Part shown: positions 10,387-47,697 of the stretch, one piece after another
Layout of the letters: every line of letters starts with the position of its first letter
Numbering within the stretch: position 1 is the stretch's first letter
From: Bacillota bacterium
Lineage (GTDB): Bacteria > Bacillota > Clostridia > Lachnospirales > Lachnospiraceae
Direction of reading: 5' to 3'
Assembly: GCA_023663285.1 (NCBI GenBank)
Contig: JAMPHT010000019.1
Span: 1-47,766, forward strand
Length of the DNA: 47,766 nt
Notes under the pieces: model-generated
Databases searched by the model: none
The model's input: only the letters and a program-made list of their open reading frames with translations
Told to the model about the DNA's origin: nothing
Position numbers and translations under genes: made by a program

Positions 10387-12303
10387 ATGGACAGAAAGTA
10401 TCTGGAGCTGCTTTCCGAAAAATTTCCCACGATTGAAAGCGCCGCAAGCGAGATAATCAATCTCTCTGCGATCCGCAGCCTGCCCAAGGGCACGGAATAT
10501 TTTTTCAGCGATCTGCACGGCGAATATGAAGCGTTTCTGTATATGCTGAAAAGCGCATCGGGGATGATCAAGATCAAGATAGACAAGGTGTTCGGAAAGA
10601 CGGTCTCAAGCGCGGAGCGGACAGCGCTTGTGAATCTGATCTATTATCCGGAGAGGGAGCTGAAACGGCTTTCCGAAAACGGCGGATACACGGAGGAATG
10701 GCAGAAGCTTACGATCTACAGGCTGATCCTGGTGTGTGAGGCTATCTCCGCAAAGTACACACGCTCAAGAGTCCGTAAAAGCGTCCCGGAGAAATTCCGG
10801 TATATTGTAGATGAACTTCTGAATGTGACGGATGATGTCAATAAGGACGTTTATTTCGATAAGATCATCAGCTCCATCATGGAGACGGGGATCACAGGAA
10901 GCTTTATCACCGCCCTGTGCAGGCTGATCCAGGCCCTTGCCATTGACAGGCTGCACATTATCGGGGATATTTTTGACAGGGGACCCAGGCCGGATATTAT
11001 TCTGGATGAGTTGATGAACTGTCACGATGTGGATATTCAGTGGGGAAACCACGATATTTCATGGATCGGGGCGGCCTGCGGCAATCCGGCGCTGATCGCC
11101 AATGTGATTCGTATCTCCATCAAATACAATAATTTCGACCTGCTGGAGGACGGTTATGGGCTGAATCTGCGGGCTTTGGCAGTATTTGCCCAGGAGATCT
11201 ACGGCGGGGACGACTGCACAAGTTATTATCCCCATACCTATGACGACAACATTTATGACCCTGTTGATGAAAAGCTGGCGGCGCAGATGCATAAGGCGAT
11301 CACGATCATCCAGCTGAAGCTGGAATCCCGGCTGATCTCGGTTCACGGGGAATGGGAGATGAGCGGCCGGGACCTGTTTTCAAGGGTAGATTTTGAGGCG
11401 GGGACGGTCCGGGTAAACGGTATCAGTTATCCCTTAAGGGACAGGGTTTTTCCCACGGTAGATCCCAAGGATCCCTCCCGGCTTTCTCAGGAGGAGGCGC
11501 AGCTGATGGAGGTGCTTAAGAATTCATTTCTCCACAGTGAAAAGCTGCAGAAGCACATCCGATTCCTGCTGTCCAACGGTGCCATGTACAAGGTCTGCAA
11601 CGGCAACCTGATGTTTCACGGCTGTATCCCCATGGATGAAAATGCCGGGCTGCAGAGTCTGGAGATCGGCGGTAAAAGCTGCCGGGGCAGGGAGCTTCTG
11701 GATGAACTCAACAGGCTTGTGAACATGGCATATTTTTCAAGGGAGAGCTATGCCGTGGACTTTTTGTGGTATCTCTGGTGCGGCGCCAGATCTCCTCTGT
11801 ACGGCAAGGATAAGATGGCGCTTTTTGAGCGATATTTTATCGACGACAAGGCGCTTCAGGAGGAGAACTACAACAGCTATTACAGATTTTCGGAAAGGGA
11901 GGACGTCTGTCGGGATATTTTGCGGATGTTTTCTATCAGCGAGGATAGCGGACATATCATCAACGGCCATGTCCCCGTTAAGATCAAGGACGGGGAGAAG
12001 CCTGTCAAAGCTGAAGGGAAGCTGTATGTCATTGACGGCGGGATCTCCAAGGCTTATCAGAAAACCACGGGAATCGCAGGTTATACTCTGATCTATGACT
12101 CCCACAGTCTGATCCTTGCGGAGCACAAGCCCTTTAAGAGCGGAAGCGCCGAACAGACGCCTGAGATCCATGTGGTGGAGAAGCTGCCTGCCAGGGCGAA
12201 TATCTCCGATACGGATAAGGGGGAGGAGCTGCTGGAACAAATCTTTGATCTGCGGCAGCTGCTGAATGCCTATTTTGACGGCAGCATCAAGGAAAAGCGG
12301 TAA
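10387..12303 (+). CDS. fbp: Fructose-1,6-bisphosphatase class III
   Basis: 638 aa from the ATG at 10387 (TGGAGGA 8 nt upstream); an in-frame upstream extension lacks a ribosome binding site. It hydrolyses fructose 1,6-bisphosphate in gluconeogenesis. It has the calcineurin-like metallophosphatase motifs SDLHGEYEAF near residue 42, GDIFDRGPRPD near 191, QWGNHDISW near 218, SVHGEW near 318 and GHVPVK near 523. The length matches the Bacillus subtilis-type Fbp family (about 640-670 aa). It follows ptsI and fruK, so this block sets the direction of flux at fructose phosphates. The gap to ptsI is about 120 nt with no terminator seen. Confidence 0.95.
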   Translation: MDRKYLELLSEKFPTIESAASEIINLSAIRSLPKGTEYFFSDLHGEYEAFLYMLKSASGMIKIKIDKVFGKTVSSAERTALVNLIYYPERELKRLSENGGYTEEWQKLTIYRLILVCEAISAKYTRSRVRKSVPEKFRYIVDELLNVTDDVNKDVYFDKIISSIMETGITGSFITALCRLIQALAIDRLHIIGDIFDRGPRPDIILDELMNCHDVDIQWGNHDISWIGAACGNPALIANVIRISIKYNNFDLLEDGYGLNLRALAVFAQEIYGGDDCTSYYPHTYDDNIYDPVDEKLAAQMHKAITIIQLKLESRLISVHGEWEMSGRDLFSRVDFEAGTVRVNGISYPLRDRVFPTVDPKDPSRLSQEEAQLMEVLKNSFLHSEKLQKHIRFLLSNGAMYKVCNGNLMFHGCIPMDENAGLQSLEIGGKSCRGRELLDELNRLVNMAYFSRESYAVDFLWYLWCGARSPLYGKDKMALFERYFIDDKALQEENYNSYYRFSEREDVCRDILRMFSISEDSGHIINGHVPVKIKDGEKPVKAEGKLYVIDGGISKAYQKTTGIAGYTLIYDSHSLILAEHKPFKSGSAEQTPEIHVVEKLPARANISDTDKGEELLEQIFDLRQLLNAYFDGSIKEKR

Positions 12304-12361
12304 ACGTCCGGGGAAATAAGGCTTGCTATTTCGGAAAATAATATTGATCAGGAGGAATTTC

Positions 12362-13486
12362 ATGTCCGGGAAAAAACGTATGGCAAATCTGGAGCTGCTG
12401 CGCTGCGTTGCAATGCTGATGGTGATCGTGCTGCATTATCTGGGGAAGGGCGGGCTGCTGCCGGAGCTGACGGGCGGCGGGCTTGACGCCACAGGAGCGG
12501 CAGCCTGGCTTCTGGAGGCATTCTGCATTGTGGCAGTCAACGTATATATGCTTATCAGCGGTTACTTTTTATGTGCCTCTTCTTTTAAGCTGAGCCGTCT
12601 GCTTCAGCTTTTGGTGCAGGTCTGGCTGTATTCCGTTGTGTTTGGGATCCTGGGGGCGGTAACAGGAGTAGTAACAGAGGTGACTGTGGACACCCATTAT
12701 TTCCTGACCCTGCTTTTCCCGATCTCCATGGAGCATTACTGGTTCCTGACAGCATATGTTTTCCTGTATCTGCTTCTGCCCTTTGTGGGAACAGCGGTAA
12801 AGCGGATGTCAAAGCGGCAGCTGCAGCTTGCGCTTTCGCTTCTGCTCATTGCCTTCTGCGTTCTGAAAAGTGTTCTGCCCCTGCGGCTGGAAAAGGATGC
12901 AATGGGCTATGACTGTCTGTGGTATCTGTGTGTGTTTGTGACGGCGGCATACATACGGAGGTTTGGAATCAACTTTCTGGAAAAGCGGCGGCGGGCGGGG
13001 ATACTGTATGTCGTCTGCTGTCTGCTGGCGTACGCCGGCACCATGGGGCTGCGGCTTTTCTATGCCCGCACCGGCAGCCTGGGCAGAATGACGGGAATGT
13101 GCATGGAATATAATCATATCCTTCCTTTTCTGGCGGCAGTGGGGCTGTTTGGATTTTTCAGAAAGATAGAGATAAAAGGTAAAATTGCGGATGTTATTAA
13201 TAAAATTGCCCCCTATACTCTGGGCGTTTATCTGCTCCATGAGAATCTGGGGCTGCGTTACGCCTGGCAGAGCTGGCTTGGGGCGGATCGGATCACCAAT
13301 GTGGGAGAACTGCTGGTGTGGACCCTTCTGGCGGCCTTGAGCGTATTTGTATGCGGTATTCTGGCAGATATGCTGCGGGCAGGGCTGATGAAGGGAATAC
13401 ACGGCCTGCTGTGCAGGGGGAAGGCTTACAGGAAGCTGGTTGAAAGGATAGAGAAGGCGGACAGTTTATTCAGGGAGGCATCATAG
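12362..13486 (+). CDS. Membrane acyltransferase, family 3
   Basis: 374 aa from the ATG at 12362, with AGGAGGAA 6 nt upstream. It has about ten hydrophobic segments and begins with RMANLELLRCVAMLMVIVLHY, the usual start of acyltransferase-3 proteins; the His in LHY is the likely catalytic residue. VNVYMLISGYF and YWFLTAYVFLYLLLP are also family-typical, as is LGVYLLHENL. Such proteins O-acetylate or O-acylate surface sugars at the membrane. The next gene encodes another large polytopic protein, which suggests shared work on a cell-surface polymer; the substrate is unknown. Confidence 0.88.
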   Translation: MSGKKRMANLELLRCVAMLMVIVLHYLGKGGLLPELTGGGLDATGAAAWLLEAFCIVAVNVYMLISGYFLCASSFKLSRLLQLLVQVWLYSVVFGILGAVTGVVTEVTVDTHYFLTLLFPISMEHYWFLTAYVFLYLLLPFVGTAVKRMSKRQLQLALSLLLIAFCVLKSVLPLRLEKDAMGYDCLWYLCVFVTAAYIRRFGINFLEKRRRAGILYVVCCLLAYAGTMGLRLFYARTGSLGRMTGMCMEYNHILPFLAAVGLFGFFRKIEIKGKIADVINKIAPYTLGVYLLHENLGLRYAWQSWLGADRITNVGELLVWTLLAALSVFVCGILADMLRAGLMKGIHGLLCRGKAYRKLVERIEKADSLFREAS

Positions 13487-13490
13487 CGTT

Positions 13491-15413
13491 ATGAGAGGGC
13501 AGCTTGCAAAAGAAACAGGAAAGAAACGCTCTGTAATGGCGAAAAATATGGCGGAGAATCTGTTTATCATCATTCTGGCGTTCTATCCTCTGCGGCATAT
13601 ACAATGGGGTCTGGACCTTACGGACACAGGCTATAATTATGCAAATTACGCTTATATGGGAACAGAGCACATGGATCCCATGTGGCTGTTTTCCACCTGG
13701 CTGTCCAATACGGTGGGACATTTGCTGACAAAGCTGCCAAACGGCGGCCGGCTTGTGGGGATGAATATCTATACCGGATTGTTTGTGAGCTTTCTGGCGC
13801 TTGCCGGGTACTGGTTCTGCACCAGGAAGCTGAGGATCCGTCCCTGGATCGCATTTTTGGGCGAGGTGGCGGCGGTCAGCCTGTGTTGGTGTCCTACCGC
13901 TGTTCTGTATAATTACATGACCTATGTGTTGTTTCTGGGAGGCTTCATTTTATTATACTTTGGTTTGACAAAGGACAAAAAGGGATTTCTGATCGGGGCG
14001 GGGTTTTGTCTTGGCGCCAATGTTCTGGTGCGGTTTTCCAATCTCCCTGAAGCGGCTATGATACTGGCGGTGTGGGTCTATGACTTTTTGTGTGCCGGGG
14101 AGGAGAAGCAAAGCGGCTCGGCATATCAGGAGGGCTTCTGGAAGAAGGCACTGAGGCACACGGGCTGGTGTCTGCTGGGGTATCTGGCGGCGCTGGTGGT
14201 GCTGTTCAGTTACATTGATATTCAGTATGGCTTTGGGGAATATGTGAAGGGGATCTCACGTCTGTTTGCCATGACTGACACGGCTACGGATTACAGGGCA
14301 GCCTCCATGGTGGTCAATATGATCCACGACTATACGGAGAATCTGTACTGGGTGATCCGTATGGGAGTATTCCTGGCGGCGGGAATGGCAGTGTCTGTGC
14401 TGGCAGGACTGGCTAAGGGCAAAGCCGCTCTTCCTTTAAAGCGGGCTGCTCAGGCAGCAAGCGTCCTGTTTGGGGCAGCCATGGCAGGGTGGCTTTATTA
14501 CCGGGATTCGGAGGGCTTGAGAGTTTCCTTTTGTACGCTGGACTTCTGCGACTATTCTTCCATGCGCAGGCCCGCGATCCTGTTTCTGATGCTGACGCTG
14601 TTCATAGCGGCGGTGCGGGTGCTTCATCCCAAAAGCAGGAAAGAGGACAGGCTTGTGGGGGGGATGCTGATCCTGGTCATTCTCCTGACCGCTATCGGCA
14701 GCAATAACAGGACTTTTCCCAGCATCAACAACCTTTTTATCGGAGCGCCTTACACCCTCCAGGCCTGCTGGAGCTTTCTGAAGGAATACAGGGATAAAAA
14801 AATAGCAGGCGTTACAATTCCGGTATTTCCCATAAAGTGTATCCTGTCTGTCTTTTTGCTGCTGTGCTGCTTCCAGTTCGCCGGATTCGGGGCAAAATTT
14901 GCCTTTGCCGAATTTACGGGAGTGAGGGACATCAGCGCGGGGGTGGAAAATAATGAAGTTTTAAAAAATGTGAAAATGTCAGCGGAGAAGGCGGAGTGGA
15001 TGAGTTCTATCAGCGCTTATGTCAATGAAAACGGGCTGCAGGGACAGGAGGTCATACTGTATGGAGCGCCTGACTCTCTGGCAATTCCCGCTTTATCCTA
15101 TTATCTGCAGATGCCTTCGGCATTTAATCCCTGGATAAACTTAAAATCCTACAGTTATACAGCTATGGAAGAGGATATGCGGGAGCTGGAGGGGGAGACG
15201 CCGGTGGTGATACTGGAGAATGTGACGGCATTGTACGCGGAGGGCGCAGCAGAAGCGCTGGCGGAGGCGGGCTTCAGCGAGGGAACCATAGAGACCCTGG
15301 CGTCAGATGAAAAGCTTCAGCTGATATTGGATTTCATGGGGCAGAAGGGCTATGTGCAGACCTTCCGCAGTGAGAAATTCGGTGTGTATCAGTGTGTGGG
15401 AAAAACGGATTGA
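13491..15413 (+). CDS. Large polytopic membrane protein, possible glycosyltransferase
   Basis: 640 aa with about 11-12 hydrophobic segments in the first 470 residues and a soluble C-terminal ~150 residues. FIIILAFYPLRHIQWGLDLTDTGYNYANY, early in the chain, has the D-x-x-D-T/S-G-Y acidic loop seen in GT-C-type glycosyltransferases such as PMT-like and ArnT-like enzymes. I do not recognise a named family. It starts 5 nt after the acyltransferase gene, so the two are probably co-transcribed; ATG 13491 or 13536 could be the start. Inferred role: transfer of a lipid-linked sugar outside the membrane. Confidence 0.6.
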   Translation: MRGQLAKETGKKRSVMAKNMAENLFIIILAFYPLRHIQWGLDLTDTGYNYANYAYMGTEHMDPMWLFSTWLSNTVGHLLTKLPNGGRLVGMNIYTGLFVSFLALAGYWFCTRKLRIRPWIAFLGEVAAVSLCWCPTAVLYNYMTYVLFLGGFILLYFGLTKDKKGFLIGAGFCLGANVLVRFSNLPEAAMILAVWVYDFLCAGEEKQSGSAYQEGFWKKALRHTGWCLLGYLAALVVLFSYIDIQYGFGEYVKGISRLFAMTDTATDYRAASMVVNMIHDYTENLYWVIRMGVFLAAGMAVSVLAGLAKGKAALPLKRAAQAASVLFGAAMAGWLYYRDSEGLRVSFCTLDFCDYSSMRRPAILFLMLTLFIAAVRVLHPKSRKEDRLVGGMLILVILLTAIGSNNRTFPSINNLFIGAPYTLQACWSFLKEYRDKKIAGVTIPVFPIKCILSVFLLLCCFQFAGFGAKFAFAEFTGVRDISAGVENNEVLKNVKMSAEKAEWMSSISAYVNENGLQGQEVILYGAPDSLAIPALSYYLQMPSAFNPWINLKSYSYTAMEEDMRELEGETPVVILENVTALYAEGAAEALAEAGFSEGTIETLASDEKLQLILDFMGQKGYVQTFRSEKFGVYQCVGKTD

Positions 15414-35669: not shown

Positions 35670-35993
35670 ATGGAGCAGATCGCAGCGGAAGATTTTCAGG
35701 TGATAGACAATTGTCTGATGATAAGGCTGCCGGAGGAGGTAGACCATCACAGGGCGGGCTTTATCTGTGAGAATGCGGACAGGCTGTTGTGCAGGGAAAA
35801 TGTGTGCAACGTGGTCTTTGATTTTGAAAACACAAGGTTTATGGATTCCTCCGGCGTGGGGATCATTATGGGGAGACACCGGAAAATAGCCTGCTTTGGC
35901 GGGCGGGTCTTTTGTATTCATGCAGACAGGCAGATCAGGAGGATACTGACTGTCTCAGGACTGGAAAAAATTGTGGAGGTACTGGAATCATGA
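35670..35993 (+). CDS. spoIIAA: Anti-sigma F factor antagonist SpoIIAA
   Basis: 107 aa from the ATG at 35670 with GGGAGAGAG upstream. A STAS-domain protein: the unphosphorylated form binds SpoIIAB and frees sigma F in the forespore. The phosphorylation site is in [13 protein letters not shown] near residue 58. It is first in the spoIIAA-spoIIAB-sigF operon and overlaps spoIIAB by 4 nt (ATGA). Length and order match the family. Confidence 0.95.
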
Positions 35994-36484
35994 AAAATGA
36001 AATGGAGCTTTTGTTTGATGCGGTCTCTGACAACGAGGGATTTGCCAGAGTGGCGGTGTCGGCGTTTGTGGCGGGCGCCAATCCCACCCTGGAGGAGTTG
36101 GCGGACATCAAGACCGCAGTTTCCGAGGCGGTGACAAATTCCATTATCCACGGATATGAAAATCTGTACGGATACGGCGGCGCCAAGGGGCAGCCTGCGG
36201 ACAGATCCCATGTCAACCCCGGCAAGGTGAGAGTTTACTGCCTTTTGGAGGACGCCATGCTACATATCCAGGTCACGGACAACGGCAGGGGAATCGAGAA
36301 CCTGGAGCAGGCCATGGAACCGTTGTATACCACGAAGCCTGAGCTGGAGCGGTCCGGTATGGGGTTTGCCTTCATGGAGGCATTCATGGACGACCTTGAG
36401 GTGGAAAGCCTGCCGGGGAAAGGAACCACGGTGCGGATGAAGAAAAAAATAGGCGTCGGCGACTGGATAGACAGAGAGGACTGA
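35990..36484 (+). CDS. spoIIAB: Anti-sigma F factor / serine kinase SpoIIAB
   Basis: 164 aa, slightly longer than the usual 140-150. It holds sigma F inactive and phosphorylates SpoIIAA. GHKL ATPase motifs: N-box [19 protein letters not shown]1 [12 protein letters not shown]2 [11 protein letters not shown]. An extra loop ([19 protein letters not shown]) sits between N- and G1-box and explains part of the length. It is followed 3 nt later by sigF. Confidence 0.95.
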
Positions 36485-36487
36485 AGA

Positions 36488-36763
36488 ATGGAAGAAACGT
36501 CAGTACTGATTGCAAGGTCACAGGCAGGAGAAAAGGATGCAAGAGAAGTACTGATAGAAAAAAATCTGGGGCTGGTCCACCATATTGTACGGCGCTTTGC
36601 GGGAAGAGGCTACGATACGGAGGATCTGTTCCAGATCGGCACCATCGGCCTGATGAAGGCGATTGACAAGTTTGATCTGAAGCTGGGACTGCAGTTTTCC
36701 ACCTATGCGGTGCCGATGATATACTATAGGGGAGAAACTGGAAAATGGTACAAAACAGGATGA
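36488..36763 (+). pseudogene. sigF: sigF, 5' part only (forespore sigma factor), interrupted
   Basis: The first 78 codons are a clear SigF: RSQAGEKDAREVLIEKNLGLVHHIVRRFAGRGYDTEDLFQIGTIGLMKAIDKFD...FSTYAVPMI. A complete SigF is about 235-250 aa and continues ...GEIKRFLRDDG and regions 2.4, 3 and 4. Here the frame switches after codon 78 (about 36,720) to unrelated residues and stops at 36763. Regions needed for -10 and -35 recognition are missing, so the product cannot be an active sigma factor. Downstream sequence belongs to a phage-like element. Whether the 3' part lies beyond the right end of the element cannot be seen in this window. Confidence 0.92.
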
Positions 36764-36798: not shown

Positions 36799-37065
36799 AT
36801 GGAAAGCAAGAGAAAAGTAACATGGGAAAGCCAGTCCGGCGGTAGCTGGACGGAGAAAATAGGAGCAGTAATTGCAGAAATCCCGGCGGGAGAAAGTGCT
36901 ATTGCTTATGTGCCGGAAACGGTGAAGAAAAGTCATATCAAATTTAAGGACGTGAGCGAAATAGATCGCGTCCTTGTGGCGGTTCCTGCAGGGAAAGACG
37001 GGCAGATCGCACATTACTATTGCCCGGCAAAATCAGTACTTATAATGCAGGGGAACGAATTATGA
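36799..37065 (+). CDS. Small hypothetical protein, first gene of the element
   Basis: 88 aa from the ATG at 36799; GGAGG lies 8 nt upstream. A mixed alpha/beta soluble protein (KVTWESQSGGSWTEKIGAVIAEIP, DRVLVAVPAGKDGQI). It overlaps the next gene by 4 nt. I do not recognise it. Confidence 0.65.
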   Translation: MESKRKVTWESQSGGSWTEKIGAVIAEIPAGESAIAYVPETVKKSHIKFKDVSEIDRVLVAVPAGKDGQIAHYYCPAKSVLIMQGNEL

Positions 37066-37430
37066 ACAGATGGATAAAATACAACCCAAATCCGAAAGAC
37101 CGCCGAGTGGGCGACTGCGCAATCAGGGCGTGCTGCAAGGCGACCGGGAAATCATGGGATAAGGTTTTTGATGAACTAACAGAAATCGCATTTTATCAGA
37201 AAGATATGCCATCCGCTAATAAGGTATGGGGCGATTACTTAAAGCAAAACGGATATGTTAGGGTTGAACCAGATTACCCCATGGATGTCCATAAGTTCTG
37301 CATGAATTTTCCACATGGCACTTATGTGTTGGGACTGGACGGCCATGTTGTGACGGTGGTTGACGGATTTTTTTACGACACATGGGATTCCTCAGAGAAG
37401 AATGTAATATATTACTGGGAGCATAGATAA
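37062..37430 (+). CDS. Papain-like cysteine-protease-fold protein (putative)
   Basis: 122 aa. It has RVGDCAIRACCKATG with a possible nucleophile Cys at about 19, then GHVVTVVDGFFYDTWDS with a possible His and Asp, the order Cys-His-Asp/Asn of C39/papain-like folds. There is no signal peptide. Such small proteins are often annotated only as hypothetical in clostridial phages. The catalytic reading is inference from the spacing of the residues. It starts at the ATGA overlap with the gene before. Confidence 0.6.
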   Translation: MNRWIKYNPNPKDRRVGDCAIRACCKATGKSWDKVFDELTEIAFYQKDMPSANKVWGDYLKQNGYVRVEPDYPMDVHKFCMNFPHGTYVLGLDGHVVTVVDGFFYDTWDSSEKNVIYYWEHR

Positions 37431-39220: not shown

Positions 39221-40132
39221 ATGGGTATGACAAGCAATATGCTTTCTGTCATACGGTATGTCGCAGAAAACGACTTACAGAAAGCGAAGCAGTATGCACT
39301 TTGTTGTTGTGCAGAGGACACTACACAAAAGAACAGGCACTATGTAGCGAGGTATAAGCAGTTACTTACAACTGGCGGCATGAATATGATTGAATTGCCG
39401 CATACTGTATCAAAATTCGCCACTATGGAAGATGTATCTATGACTTATATTGAGGATAGGTATTATCTGACGGATGGAGAAAAGAAACTGTTTGAACTGA
39501 TACGTGATATGAATGATGTTGCTTTACAGCTTATGGAAAAGCAGATACCGTATCTTAACGCTACCTTACTATATGGGGAAAGCGGCGTTGGAAAGACGGC
39601 TTTTTCAAAATATGTTGCTTACAAGTTGGAAACGCCGTATCTGTATGTGAATTTCTCGAAGATGTTAGACAGTTATTTGGGAGGAACGGCAAAGAACTTG
39701 ACCGCATTGTTTGAATATATCAATCAGCAAAAATGCGTGATTATGCTTGATGAAATAGACTGCATGGCAGGAAACAGGAAGTATTCAGATGGTGGAGCAT
39801 CTGCGGAAGTGTCACGGAGTGCCACTTGCCTATTACAGCTTTTGGATGCTGTTACAAACGACCATGTAATATTGGCGGCTACTAATCTGATTGATGATGT
39901 TGACCCCGCTGTAAAAAGGAGGTTCACGGAAAAACACGAAATGAAAAGGCTGACCGCTGATGAAAATTACTCTTTTATTTGTCAGTACATGGACAGCACG
40001 GGATTTGAGTATAACAAATTATCGGCGTTGGAATACGCAAAACAAAAGCACTCACAAGCGGAAATAATGACACACATAACAAGGTGTATAGCGCAAACGC
40101 TTATAAATAAAAAGTCCATAGTTGAATTTTAA
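39221..40132 (+). CDS. AAA+ ATPase of the element
   Basis: 303 aa from the ATG at 39221. An N-terminal ~50 residues have Cys and Lys in a helical segment. Walker A LLYGESGVGKTAFSKY is near residue 120, Walker B CVIMLDEIDCMAG near 168, sensor 1 VILAATNLIDDVDPAVKRRF near 220 (with the Arg finger region), then a lid domain. The closest general type is the FtsH/ClpX-like classic AAA fold. Partner unknown; in phage elements such ATPases can act in replication, packaging or remodelling. It has its own terminator. Confidence 0.8.
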   Translation: MGMTSNMLSVIRYVAENDLQKAKQYALCCCAEDTTQKNRHYVARYKQLLTTGGMNMIELPHTVSKFATMEDVSMTYIEDRYYLTDGEKKLFELIRDMNDVALQLMEKQIPYLNATLLYGESGVGKTAFSKYVAYKLETPYLYVNFSKMLDSYLGGTAKNLTALFEYINQQKCVIMLDEIDCMAGNRKYSDGGASAEVSRSATCLLQLLDAVTNDHVILAATNLIDDVDPAVKRRFTEKHEMKRLTADENYSFICQYMDSTGFEYNKLSALEYAKQKHSQAEIMTHITRCIAQTLINKKSIVEF

Positions 40133-43781: not shown

Positions 43782-44423
43782 ATGAAGAACATTGAACAGA
43801 TTTTGAAAGATGCAGGAATTGAGCTGACGGACGAACAGAAAGCGGCGATCAATGCGGCAGTGACGGAGAATTATCGCACGAAGTCCGACTACGACAAGCA
43901 GTCTAAAAAGCTGGAAGCGGCGGAAACTGACCGCGACACTTACAAAGGGCAGCTTGACACGGCGAATGAAACCTTGGAGAAGTTCAAGGACATTGACCCG
44001 GAGAAGCAGGCGGCGGAGATTGAGAAGTACAAGACTGTCGCAAAAGAGGCGCAGGACACGGCAGCAAAACAGATTTTACAGCGTGACCAGAGGGATTACC
44101 TAAAGGGTGAGTTTGATAAGCTGGAAATCAAGTCCGAGCGCACGCGTAACTCTCTTATGGCTGACATCATGGACGCCGAAAACGGTTTGAAGTGGAAGGA
44201 CGGTGCATTTATGGGGCTTTCTGATTACTTGGCAAAGGAGAATGAGAAAGACCACTTTTACCAGACGGAAGCTGAGAAGGCCGAGGATGCAGCAAAAAAT
44301 GCGGCTGCAGGGAGTGCCCCGAAATTCACGGATAAGTCAGAGGGCAATCCTGCAGGCGGCGATGACAAGCCCACTTTCAATTTCAGATTCACTCCCATTC
44401 GGGATGTTAAGAAAGGAGATTAA
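43782..44423 (+). CDS. Phage minor structural / scaffold protein (Gp20 type)
   Basis: 213 aa; AGGAGG 8 nt before the ATG. KNIEQILKDAGIELTDEQKAAINAAVTENYRTKSDYDKQ... is the start of the phage Gp20 scaffold family. A long coiled coil follows (residues 35-100), then a C-terminal part with EKAEDAAKNAAAGSAPKFTDKSEGNPAGG. It is directly upstream of the capsid gene with a 2-nt gap, as usual for scaffolds, which shape the procapsid. Confidence 0.88.
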   Translation: MKNIEQILKDAGIELTDEQKAAINAAVTENYRTKSDYDKQSKKLEAAETDRDTYKGQLDTANETLEKFKDIDPEKQAAEIEKYKTVAKEAQDTAAKQILQRDQRDYLKGEFDKLEIKSERTRNSLMADIMDAENGLKWKDGAFMGLSDYLAKENEKDHFYQTEAEKAEDAAKNAAAGSAPKFTDKSEGNPAGGDDKPTFNFRFTPIRDVKKGD

Positions 44424-44425
44424 TC

Positions 44426-45337
44426 ATGGCAGATCAGATGAATTATGCGGAAGAGTATGCGCGGGATTTGGCGAACGCCTATCCGCAGGTGCTGCATTTT
44501 GCGGCACTCAGAAACACGGAAAACGATGATAGATATACATTTCTGGATGCGAAGACCATTCATATTCCTCATTTATCCACAACCGGGCGGACAAATGCCA
44601 GCCGTGACGAAATTACGGGATTTTCCCGTAATTTTGAGAACGAGTGGGAGGACAAGACCCTGACGTTCCATCGGGAATGGTCTACACTGGTGCATCCCAG
44701 GGATATTGACGAGACAAACCAGGCGGCAACCATCGCCAATATTACCAAAACATTCAACGAGACAGAGAAGTTCCCGGAGATGGACAATTATCTCGTGTCC
44801 AAGTTGCATTCCGACTGGGTGGAAGCCGGCGGCGAAGATGTTACCGAGGAAATCACGACCCAGAATGTTCTGACGGTATTTGATGATATGATGGAGGGCA
44901 TGGATGAAGAGGACGTTCCGGCAACCGGGCGGCTCCTGTACGTCAATCCCAGAATATCTAAGCTTTTGAAGAACACAAAGGAAATCGGCAGAAGCCTTTC
45001 CGTGGACGGAAAAAGCGACCGGGAAATTGATCGGCTGATCGCAAGGCTTGACGAAGTGGTGATCGAAAAAGTACCTTCAAAGCACATGAAGACTGCCTAC
45101 GACTTCACCATCGGCTCTAAAGTCGGTGCCAGCGCAAAGCAGATCGGTATGTTCATGGTGCATCCGTCCGTGGTGATTACGCCTGATGCTTATGATTTTG
45201 TCGGTCTGTCCGCTCCGACTGCGCAGAGCAAGGGAAAGTGGCTGTACTATGAGGAATCCTATGGGGATGTTTTCATCCTGAATAAGAGGATTGCTGGACT
45301 GAAATTCGCCGTCGAAAGCGGCGGGTTAGGAGGTTGA
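44426..45337 (+). CDS. Major capsid protein
   Basis: 303 aa, the typical size of an HK97-fold capsid protein. It has EEYARDLANAYPQVLHFAALRNTENDDRYTFLDAKTIHIPHL at the start, an N-arm; then GRTNASRDEITGF, EWSTLVHPRDIDETNQ and ending YEESYGDVFILNKRIAGLKFAVE, which fit the capsid domain. It follows the Gp20-type scaffold (2-nt gap) and precedes two head proteins. No prohead protease is visible in between. Confidence 0.82.
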   Translation: MADQMNYAEEYARDLANAYPQVLHFAALRNTENDDRYTFLDAKTIHIPHLSTTGRTNASRDEITGFSRNFENEWEDKTLTFHREWSTLVHPRDIDETNQAATIANITKTFNETEKFPEMDNYLVSKLHSDWVEAGGEDVTEEITTQNVLTVFDDMMEGMDEEDVPATGRLLYVNPRISKLLKNTKEIGRSLSVDGKSDREIDRLIARLDEVVIEKVPSKHMKTAYDFTIGSKVGASAKQIGMFMVHPSVVITPDAYDFVGLSAPTAQSKGKWLYYEESYGDVFILNKRIAGLKFAVESGGLGG

Positions 45338-45339
45338 AT

Positions 45340-45651
45340 ATGGCAGTAGGAAATATGCTTAGAGTGCTTAAGGGAAATCAGGAGATGCTGATTTCCCCTG
45401 CAAACAAAGAAAAGTACCTGAAAATGGGGTACAGTGTAATTGATGAGGACGGCTCTGTTCTGGAGCAGGGAACAAAGTCCGAGGGTACAGTCCGGCACGA
45501 ACTGGAAGCAGCGAACAGGCGCATTAAGGAACTGGAAGAGGAAAACGCAAAGCTGAAGGCCAAAACCTCCAGGCGTGGAAAGAAAGACGGCGAGCAGGAA
45601 GGACAGGAAGAGGATCCCGGCCAGGACGAAAGCAAGCTTACAGGCGAGTAA
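45340..45651 (+). CDS. Small head protein with coiled coil
   Basis: 103 aa from the ATG at 45340 (GGAGG 7 nt upstream). VGNMLRVLKGNQEMLISPANKEKYLKMGYSVIDEDG is a small globular part; the rest is a charged coiled coil with a Lys/Glu-rich tail. Its place between capsid and connector suggests a capsid accessory or head-completion role. Confidence 0.65.
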   Translation: MAVGNMLRVLKGNQEMLISPANKEKYLKMGYSVIDEDGSVLEQGTKSEGTVRHELEAANRRIKELEEENAKLKAKTSRRGKKDGEQEGQEEDPGQDESKLTGE

Positions 45652-45664
45652 AGGGAAGGCAACC

Positions 45665-46156
45665 ATGTACGCAGATTATGACTACTATCAAACTGAATAC
45701 GGTGGAAAAATGTCTGCGGACGACTTCAAGCGATTTGGCAGAAAGGCAGAGCGCAGGATTGACGCTATCACAGGGAATAAACTGCAATTTGCCTTTCCGA
45801 CCAATGAGCGTGACGCACAGGCGGTCAAAGACGCTGTCTGCGAGTTGGCAGACTTCCTCTACCAGATAGACCAGTACAACGCCGCCGCTATGGAGAGCAT
45901 GGGAACGGTGGCACAGGCGGACGGAATGGTAAAGGGCAAGGTTATCACGTCCATTTCAAGCGGTTCGGAAAGTATTGGCTATTCCGCAAGCGGTTCAGCA
46001 TCTACCGCCACTATGGAGGCGGCAAAGGATAAAAAGGTTGCTGATACCATGATTTATGGCATGGTAAGGGATAACCTTAGCGGAATTAGCGACAATAACG
46101 GTGTTCTGCTTTTGTATGCCGGAGCATACCCAAGAAAGCGTGAAATATGGAATTAA
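45665..46156 (+). CDS. Head-tail connector protein
   Basis: 163 aa from the ATG at 45665 (GGAAGG upstream). YADYDYYQTEYGGKMSADDFKRFGRKAERRIDAIT is the usual start of gp6/gp15-like head-tail adaptors; DAVKDAVCELADFLYQ-like helix (AVKDAVCELADFLYQ) follows, and a variable Ser/Gly-rich segment (SISSGSESIGYSASGSAS) near 105-122. It overlaps the methyltransferase gene by 10 nt. Confidence 0.75.
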   Translation: MYADYDYYQTEYGGKMSADDFKRFGRKAERRIDAITGNKLQFAFPTNERDAQAVKDAVCELADFLYQIDQYNAAAMESMGTVAQADGMVKGKVITSISSGSESIGYSASGSASTATMEAAKDKKVADTMIYGMVRDNLSGISDNNGVLLLYAGAYPRKREIWN

Positions 46157-47697
46157 AGGCATTATGTGAAAAGACAACTGAATTATTCGGCATTGAGAAC
46201 ATTTCCGAACTGTCGGACAAACTTCTTTCTATATGCCTTGAAAATCAGAATGAGTACATGGAAAAGTTTGCCGAATGTGTCGGCGATTTGTCGGTAGATT
46301 GGCTACAAAAAATCTTCCAATATTACGAAGCCGACCGCAAGGAGAAAATGCAGGATTACACGCCTTTGACTCTTGCCCGATTTGTCGGAAAACTGACGGA
46401 AACAGACCACGAAAAAGCGGTGTATGACCTATGTGCAGGAAGTGGGGCGTTGACAATCCAAAAGTGGAACTTGAATCACAATTTGTTTTTTGTCTGCTAC
46501 GAGTACGACAAAAAGGTTATTCCGCTGTTACTCTTTAATTTGGCGGTGCGGAACATCAACGCCCTTATTGTAAACGGTGACGCTCTGCAAGATGAAGTAT
46601 TCACACGCTACACGGTAAAGAGCGGAGAGAAATACGGCACGGTTACAGAGCATGAGGACAAAGTATTTTATGACTTGCCCGATTCGTGTATATCGAACCC
46701 ACCGTACAACATGAAATGGAAATTGCCGCCCTTTGCACAGTTACAGCCACGCTTTAATGATTGCGAGTTACCGCCCGAAAGCAACGCCAATTTTGCCTTT
46801 ATTCTGACCGCATTAGACCGTTGCAAAGATAAGGCGGTTATGATACTTCCAAATGGCGTACTATCTACGGATAACCCACAGGAAAAGGCGATAAGGCGGT
46901 ATCTGATAGAGCAGAACCTTGTCGAAACGGTTATCTCATGCCCCGACAAGATGTTTGAAGCCACGAGCATAGCGACTTGCATTTTGGTGCTGAATAAACA
47001 AAAAGCCACAACACATATTGCTTTTGTGGATATGCGGCAGACTTTTGAAACAGAGCAGAGGGAACAAAACGGGCAGTTCGGCGGCGCAAGCCACGAAAAC
47101 CGCACATACAAAAAAGAAGTCAAGATTTTTACTGATGAACAGATACAGAAAGCCATTGACAGTATAAACAATCAATCGGCTATCCCCGAATTTTCAAAGG
47201 CGGTATCTATTCAGACGGTAGCGGAAAATGATTTTATTCTTATTCCCTCACGATACATAGAGTTTCAAGAACAGGATTTCAAGCATAGGGAGTATGAGGA
47301 GATTGTGGCGGATATAAACCGCATAACAGCCGAAAAGAACGCTTGTAAGCTGACAATAAGTGAATCTTTGGCGAAAACGCTTGGATTTGACATTGAACTG
47401 TATAAGCAAGACCAGCAGGACAGCGGATTGAACGACCTTTTGAAATCGCTTGGTGCTGAACCTATAACGAAGCAAGATTATTTTATAACTTCTCCGTACA
47501 AAAATATTATCAAGTTTGAGAACAACAGCAAGGACATTGTTTCAAGCGTTTTGATGATGATTATGAACACATGGCGGCAACATATCTATTATCTGAACAA
47601 TGAGGAAAACCGCTATCTTGCAGAATTAAGGGACGCACTTTTGCCCGACCTTATGAGTGGGAAGATTGACTTAGAGGGGGTGGGCGATTTGGGATAA
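46147..47697 (+). CDS. N6-adenine DNA methyltransferase with HsdM/HsdS-like parts
   Basis: 516 aa. SAM-binding motif I VYDLCAGSGALT near residue 97; catalytic NPPY motif (SNPPYNMKWKLPPF) near 181; helical N-domain of HsdM type. The C-terminal ~150 residues (EQDFKHREYEEIVADINRITAEK..., ENRYLAELRDALLPDLMSGKIDLEGV) look like the end of an HsdS specificity subunit. No restriction subunit is next to it. Likely role: protecting element DNA from host restriction. It begins inside the connector gene, so it is translated with the structural operon, which is unusual. Confidence 0.82.
   Translation: MELKALCEKTTELFGIENISELSDKLLSICLENQNEYMEKFAECVGDLSVDWLQKIFQYYEADRKEKMQDYTPLTLARFVGKLTETDHEKAVYDLCAGSGALTIQKWNLNHNLFFVCYEYDKKVIPLLLFNLAVRNINALIVNGDALQDEVFTRYTVKSGEKYGTVTEHEDKVFYDLPDSCISNPPYNMKWKLPPFAQLQPRFNDCELPPESNANFAFILTALDRCKDKAVMILPNGVLSTDNPQEKAIRRYLIEQNLVETVISCPDKMFEATSIATCILVLNKQKATTHIAFVDMRQTFETEQREQNGQFGGASHENRTYKKEVKIFTDEQIQKAIDSINNQSAIPEFSKAVSIQTVAENDFILIPSRYIEFQEQDFKHREYEEIVADINRITAEKNACKLTISESLAKTLGFDIELYKQDQQDSGLNDLLKSLGAEPITKQDYFITSPYKNIIKFENNSKDIVSSVLMMIMNTWRQHIYYLNNEENRYLAELRDALLPDLMSGKIDLEGVGDLG

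Follow-up and report, generated by a model that had tools for sequence, protein, structure and literature searches.

The forespore sigma factor gene sigF of a Lachnospiraceae bacterium is divided by a probable prophage at a codon where its paralogue sigG is also split

The forespore sigma factor gene sigF of a Lachnospiraceae draft genome was found in two pieces, the first of which runs directly into phage-like DNA. The best explanation, to which we assign a probability of roughly 0.87, is the insertion of a temperate phage into sigF by a large serine integrase, leaving the lysogen with a gene in two pieces that excision would rejoin in frame. The stretch of DNA analysed (hereafter the window) comprises all of contig C10 (47,766 bp) of the source genome, G000, a draft of 90 contigs and 3.07 Mb that is 86% complete. 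Since the window is the entire contig, the right end of the element cannot lie within it. The features discussed below are listed in Table 1.

The earlier note on this DNA described spoIIAA and spoIIAB as intact, and both are indeed whole by their protein family matches, that of spoIIAA being under the cut-off. Its description of sigF as normal for 78 codons, with no match after FSTYAVPMI, also stands. Residues 1-78 are 100% identical to those of SigF (255 aa) from the nearest relative, G036, and the frame then departs from SigF after A-V-P-M-I. The last base in common with the rejoined gene is 36720, beyond which the interrupted ORF enters the element and reaches a stop at 36763. GC content, calculated in 1-kb steps, is 0.516-0.573 at 30-37 kb compared with 0.411-0.511 at 37-47 kb.

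Table 1. Positions of sporulation genes, attachment sequences and phage genes in the window.
Feature	Position	Strand	Evidence
spoIIAA, whole	35670..35993	+	TIGR02886, 95.0 bits, under curated cut-off 114.75
spoIIAB, whole	35990..36484	+	TIGR01925, 191 bits, over cut-off
sigF 5′ part, residues 1-78	36488..36720	+	partial match to NF004052 and TIGR02885
attL core CCGATGAT	36713..36720	+	identical 8 bases at attR on C64
prophage left part, cut by contig end	36715..47766	+	phage gene content; junction alignable with G438 prophage
attP right arm	36715..36738	+	G109 arms complementary 18/24 around CC; G000: 6 bases of other arm, 5/6
conserved phage protein near left end	37062..37430	+	phrog_3754; nucleotide match in G109 and IMG/VR L125
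AAA ATPase	39221..40132	+	PF00004; phrog_3757
capsid scaffold protein	43782..44423	+	PF06810, 60.7 bits; phrog_194
major head protein	44426..45337	+	phrog_422, 307 bits; 52.9% identical to Clostridioides phage phiCDKH02 capsid protein
head-tail adaptor	45575..46156	+	phrog_541; 77% identical to G438 prophage protein over 163 residues
N-6 DNA methylase	46147..47697	+	PF02384, 180 bits

The remainder of sigF, which had been sought to the right of the window, lies instead at one end of a different contig of G000, in frame. A search of G000 with the C-terminal part of G036 SigF located it on the minus strand of contig C64 (L042), where it is open from the first base and shows 90% identity to G036 across the 177 residues used as query; the insert lies within the coding sequence of this sporulation gene, whose halves are on C10 and C64. 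The C10 junction reads GCGGTG-CCGATGAT-ATACTATAGG and that of C64 reads ATCATT-CCGATGAT and then CACCGGGGAG / CACCGGGG (translation IIPMITGEIKRFLRDDG), the 8-base core CCGATGAT being common to both. The crossover dinucleotide is probably the CC at 36713-36714, with which the Pro codon of A-V-P-M in sigma region 2 begins. Joined in silico, the flanks of C10 and C64 read ...FSTYAVPMITGEIKRFLRDDG, in frame. Joining the flanks of five sites by script gave the empty site YAVPMI(T/I)GEI(K/R)R, in frame in 5/5. Only 6 bases of the element are on C64, the rest of the right end being absent from the G000 assembly, and when G000 was searched with ATCATTCCGATGAT (two mismatches or fewer) the sole exact place was C64. 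Of the one-mismatch matches, the one inspected, on C21, is located in another gene and was rejected as the right end.

The same picture might arise if a phage contig had been wrongly joined to sigF during assembly or binning, and the location of the 3′ half on a separate contig of an incomplete draft would fit such an artefact. We regard this as very improbable, given the common 8-bp core, the in-frame join, the same junction geometry in the genome G109 and the contiguous cases in G438 and G425. G109 (98% complete) is a Lachnoclostridium MAG of a second species; it contains both halves of sigF, and at each of the two junctions lie an arm of the element and the core CCGATGAT seen in G000. The join at 36,720 is not an assembly error because this second species has the same split, and the junction can be aligned with one inside the contiguous G438 prophage. 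The earlier note had also named the absence of the 3′ part, or a second complete sigF elsewhere, as grounds for doubt; the 3′ half is on C64 and no second sigF was found in G000 at its 86% completeness. On the attR side of G109, YFIDF* precedes the arm and resembles the integrase end HFIDF of G438. PF07508 had no match in G109, from whose assembly the recombinase end of the element is absent. A search for the sigF attR pattern among the genome contigs returned one match, the G109 record itself.

Across 138 genomes of the genus, sigF is near full-length in 120 (our own count from search tables) and is cut at the A-V-P-M codon in three, namely G000, G109 and G065. The remaining genomes comprise one in which the gene is cut elsewhere by contig ends (G102), nine with a sigG-grade match only and five with none at E<=1e-25. 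One of the nine, G149, does carry residues 1-100 of sigF, at the end of a contig. G065 has the sigF 3′ half only, on contig C168, flush at the CC with zero element bases, which is consistent with a split and was not counted as proof. G102 was rejected as a split sigF case, there being contig ends only, with overlap. A further split sigF was found in G196 beside an integrase of the clade described below, and SigF is the best or co-best NCBIfam model for its 3′ half.

The earlier note called the DNA beyond about 36,720 phage-like, and the gene content bears this out. The 11 kb of the element that are present in the G000 assembly include head, scaffold and head-tail adaptor genes (phrog_422, phrog_194, phrog_541), the capsid and head-tail genes looked for in a temperate tailed phage. 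Two serine integrases were found in G000, both belonging to other elements, and an integrase of the sigF/sigG clade had no match there at E<=1e-90 (4/7 candidates scored). Judging from its relatives, the element would carry a clade-type integrase at its missing right end, and both integration and excision would be the work of an integrase of this clade. We infer that the element is still able to excise. Pattern searches of IMG/VR for the element ends gave 0 matches.

A profile of four integrases was searched against 397 genomes of the family and 18 matched at E<=1e-90. A split sporulation sigma gene lies beside the integrase in 5/18 loci (sigG in G425, G438, G439 and G504; sigF in G196), and tblastn of SigF/SigG halves against those 18 loci gave a sigma match in these five only. 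Among 189 viral loci, SigG-grade halves that end or start at this codon came only from the L178 contig (present three times) and MT839977.1; in the remaining matches the N half was 42-63% similar to other sigma factors. Wherever the recombinase is readable at a sigF or sigG junction it is a large serine integrase (domains PF00239, PF07508 and PF13408) within 130 bases, its stop lying ~20 to 130 bases from the CC in five of the 18 loci and in L178. The expectation of a recombinase at one end of the element thus holds in the relatives, with a large serine integrase beside the junctions; the assemblies of G000 and G109 do not reach the recombinase end, and no clade integrase was found in them.

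For the integrase tree 28 rows were listed, five were dropped by a motif filter (L372, L260, L321, L069, L070) and one outgroup row was kept. Within the resulting tree of 23 integrases, a 12-row clade (100/100) groups the integrases of five sigG cases and one sigF case with three from free phages and three further ones; this clade stands apart from the one outgroup row. The sigF-case integrase is sister to a sigG-case integrase (100/99), so the attachment target seems, from the tree, to have moved between the paralogues sigF and sigG. For three clade integrases, in G480, G494 and G339, the 1.5 kb flanks fetched were free of sigma genes. Each of these (L337, L339 and L340, respectively) follows a similar small ORF, by reading, as if chromosome-resident. 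The clade integrase shares its serine-integrase domains with that of Brochothrix phage BL3, at 37.1% identity, and its best solved-structure match is the TP901-1 catalytic domain.

The CC of the A-V-P-M Pro codon falls at the same place in 15 aligned junctions. The attP arms are inverted about this CC in G109 (18/24), G102 (17/24), G425 (17/24) and the free-phage contigs L256 (17/24), L258 (18/24) and L260 (23/24), each dyad being equalled by three or fewer of 20000 shuffles (G109: 3 of 20000). The sigF attP of G109 therefore has the short core and the inverted arms around 2 bp of a large serine integrase site; in G000 only 6 positions are available, of which 5/6 agree. The dyad is absent from G438 (10/24, with 6139 of 20000 shuffles as good) and from Dulem virus 39 (11/24). 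The latter, a circular phage record, has GTGCCAATGATTATA, codons V-P-M-I-I, at the attP place behind its integrase. From these alignments, the predicted attB of the element clade is the set of codons for A-V-P-M-I in sigF or in its paralogue sigG; a single integrase clade would then dock on the codons of a conserved protein motif in two paralogous genes.

Such codons could be no more than a neutral safe harbour, conserved across hosts and dispensable in growth, with any effects on sporulation being by-products. Free-phage attP sites that resemble the host codons, as in Dulem virus 39, agree with this, as do more distant integrases that lie elsewhere, for example beside a feoB-like gene (by reading of the translation). 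The splits in G000, however, seem to concentrate on sporulation genes (sigF, sigG, spoVT and a SpoIID-like gene), and we find the safe-harbour reading rather doubtful.

Splits of sigG at the A-V-P-M Pro codon were found in G000 and in seven other genomes or records. In G000, contig C43 (L002:1-343) ends in a sigG 5′ half that leaves the family after A-V-P-M, and a sigG 3′ half was not found in this genome. The 5′ halves on G000 C43 and on C116 (L117) of G102, another species, have the same 55 bases from ATG to contig end and both stop at the same base; G102 also has a sigG 3′ half with a matching element arm. The sigG element arm is exact in 2/138 genus genomes. One more match, in G141 with 3 mismatches, was judged to be chance, there being no sigG in the stretch inspected. 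Split sigG genes beside an integrase are those of the IMG/VR contig L178 (whose junction carries a large serine integrase of 453 aa), G425, G438, G439, G504 and MT839977.1, a record from human faeces in a public phage collection, without annotation; SigG is the best or co-best NCBIfam model for their 3′ halves. Two other candidates were set aside: G098 proved to be a contig overlap of the whole gene, and a sigG-like ORF on G058 C38 (L067) departs just after A-V-P, differing from this pattern.

Two of these cases are contiguous. In G438 both sigG halves are in one 323-kb contig, 44,855 bp apart; a distance of 27 bases separates the 448-aa integrase from the CC of attR, and long ORFs, their modules named by reading, run the length of the insert. 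The G438 and window junctions are 80% identical over 92 columns. Relatives of six window ORFs occur in the G438 prophage, the best at 77% over 163 residues. The window major head protein had no match in the G438 prophage at E<=1e-8. G438 is a mosaic relative of the window element, and its length is therefore only an analogy; on that analogy the G000 element would be near 45 kb long. In G425 the sigG halves are 2,514 bp apart in one contig (C82:45,498-48,012, L355), separated by an integrase, a 63-aa ORF and a BMC-domain protein (PF00936). The microcompartment shell (BMC) domain protein is an odd cargo to find beside an integrase. The 63-aa ORF has no Pfam match and is at most a candidate directionality factor, and the operon has, by eye, the promoter TTGACA-17-TATAAT. 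In G015 both sigG halves are flush with contig ends at the CC (C2 and C27) with no element bases, which is consistent with a split and was not counted as proof. Flush ends at the CC in G015 and G065 perhaps reflect an assembly fork at the core in a mixture of excised and integrated cells.

Other sporulation genes of G000 are also split. The 5′ part of spoVT is on C35 (L371) and its 3′ part is on C2 (L043; L069:16269-18563), where it is in one frame with the large serine integrase ORF of another element. The rejoined gene would read ESDPLEIYTD, as in G036, and spoVT is in one piece in 7/8 genomes searched. A third element, bearing a serine integrase of its own, disrupts a SpoIID-like gene on C88 (L070, ~11,619-14,420). 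This element also has a retropepsin-like ORF (by reading). In another species, G102, a serine-integrase element on C91 (L156) disrupts a SpoIID-like gene close to the same point. The mother-cell sigma factors are whole in G000, with SigE at 385 bits (over cut-off) and SigK at 277 bits with NF004471 (over cut-off) and 269 bits with TIGR02846 (under its 298.65). As G000 is a draft, its splits may come from a mixed population and not necessarily from one cell. In G015, a phage-like gene and serine integrase on C39 (L168:1720-3506) run into a polysaccharide-deacetylase-like fragment (by reading).

Under the phage reading, attB would be the host DNA coding for the conserved A-V-P-M-I of sigma region 2, with crossover at the CC of the Pro codon. 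Lysogens would have sigF in two pieces and no whole sigma-F would be expected in them; precise excision by the integrase and a directionality factor would rejoin the gene in frame. Our working view is that ordinary phage excision would occur in some cells before or at entry into sporulation, and that only cells losing the prophage, or carrying it as a circle, could sporulate. In the Bacillus subtilis pathway sigF is produced ahead of septation and is active in the forespore; removal of the element must therefore come earlier than in the sigK case and would be inherited. The separated 3′ half has a dN of 0.130-0.161 against five relatives, compared with 0.131-0.151 for the intact SigF of G036 against the same five. 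Its dN/dS is 0.056 against G036 and 0.166, 0.078, 0.131, 0.114 and 0.179 against the five shared relatives, for which the G036 values are 0.054, 0.124, 0.072, 0.085 and 0.076. The G000 value exceeds that of G036 in 4/5 shared comparisons with dS near or >1, so that selection on the separated 3′ half may be either maintained or relaxed.

A more specific proposal is that insertion acts as a sporulation lock. A lysogen that cannot sporulate would suit the phage, to which a spore is a replication dead end, and only cured or induced cells would return to sporulation. The insertion does part the first forespore sigma factor from everything past region 2, one integrase clade strikes two paralogues at one codon, and three forespore genes are split in one genome. 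Any insertion in a sporulation gene would have the same effect, however, and hence selection for a lock does not follow; moreover, the sporulation genes inspected are open frames. We give the lock somewhat less than an even chance.

A dedicated developmental switch for the sigF element is possible, in which, as with skin, the directionality factor would be made only at sporulation onset, sigF would be rebuilt on schedule and the element would have evolved into a component of the host's own programme. The detached half of sigF has remained an open frame resembling SigF, the 2.5-kb G425 element keeps an intact integrase ORF with no phage structural gene seen, and the forespore regulators sigF, sigG and spoVT are split in G000 while SigE and SigK are whole. 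The anatomy is also that of skin, yin and gin as described in the accessible parts of the sources (PMC5025042, PMC10747680, PMC5595907). Nevertheless, the distribution is patchy (120/138 genus genomes with near full-length sigF and 3/138 cut), resembling a mobile phage and not a fixed switch. The G425 operon promoter is of textbook vegetative type (TTGACA-17 bp-TATAAT, by eye) and no directionality factor was identified, only candidate small ORFs such as the 63-aa ORF of G425. A switch in the spore lineage would also cure the element at every sporulation unless it re-integrated. We consider it unlikely. More improbable still is the broadest proposal, a germ-line version of skin in which the forespore programme would be held by phages or phage-derived elements, sigF, sigG and spoVT each having its own serine-integrase element, and a spore would form only after they leave. 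If true, the elements would either enter the spore as circles and integrate again upon germination, or disappear, and phage excision would be a gate to dormancy.

The earlier note compared the insertion with the skin elements of sigK, and the likeness is one of anatomy: as far as the available text of PMC5025042 goes, skin is also phage-like DNA in a sporulation sigma gene with a large serine recombinase at one junction, and its excision restores the gene. The comparison does not extend to cell fate. In Bacillus subtilis and Clostridioides difficile, according to the same partial source (PMC5025042), skin leaves the terminal mother-cell chromosome; its target is a late mother-cell sigma gene on a chromosome that dies, whereas here the targets are forespore sigF and sigG in a cell that becomes the spore. 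The logic of a doomed mother-cell chromosome is not applicable because sigF serves the spore lineage and its excision is inherited. Nor is this skin in the strict sense of excision from sigK in the mother cell, the target being sigF and the SigK of G000 being whole. The elements yin in yabG, gin in gerE, SPbeta in spsM and vfbin likewise bear recombinases within sporulation genes, but their targets, in the portions of the reports available, are not forespore sigma factors (PMC10747680, PMC5595907, PMC4191935). An Alicyclobacillus prophage (PMC13141910) and a Clostridium perfringens phage whose intervening element lies in sigK are temperate phages for which a sporulation sigma gene likewise serves as attB, but in both, on the passages accessible, that gene is sigK and not sigF or sigG. 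Phages that carry sigF/sigG homologues (PMC9429907, PMC10294663) interfere with the same regulators, but there, from the extracts available, the phage brings its own sigma gene, whereas here the host gene is cut.

In the open literature, as far as its text was accessible and with subscription papers and preprints largely outside it, sigF or sigG was not found named as an insertion site, in keeping with the earlier note's statement that sigF is not known as a described target. A sigF or sigG prophage would decide entry into the spore lineage and any excision would be inherited, unlike the skin elements known from the literature accessible. This offers a testable case of how gut spore-formers combine lysogeny with dormancy, and means that spore-formers could appear asporogenous in genome surveys.

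The major capsid protein of the window is 52-53% identical to those of Clostridioides phages phiC2 and phiCDKH02, a comparison of the capsid protein alone. G162, an IMG/VR prophage of 51 kb whose head module is related, was rejected as the same element; it is a mosaic relative only, because it has a different integrase (of tyrosine type and near a tRNA gene, by reading) and no PF07508 match. In the window, GGTACAA followed ~18 bases on by a TATAAT-like box occurs at 36747, 39098 and 42402 and is perhaps a phage promoter. On the forward strand this pair is present in 8 copies in the 44.9-kb G438 element and in 0 in the 21 kb fetched outside it; in the window, three copies are in the element and one is in the host part.
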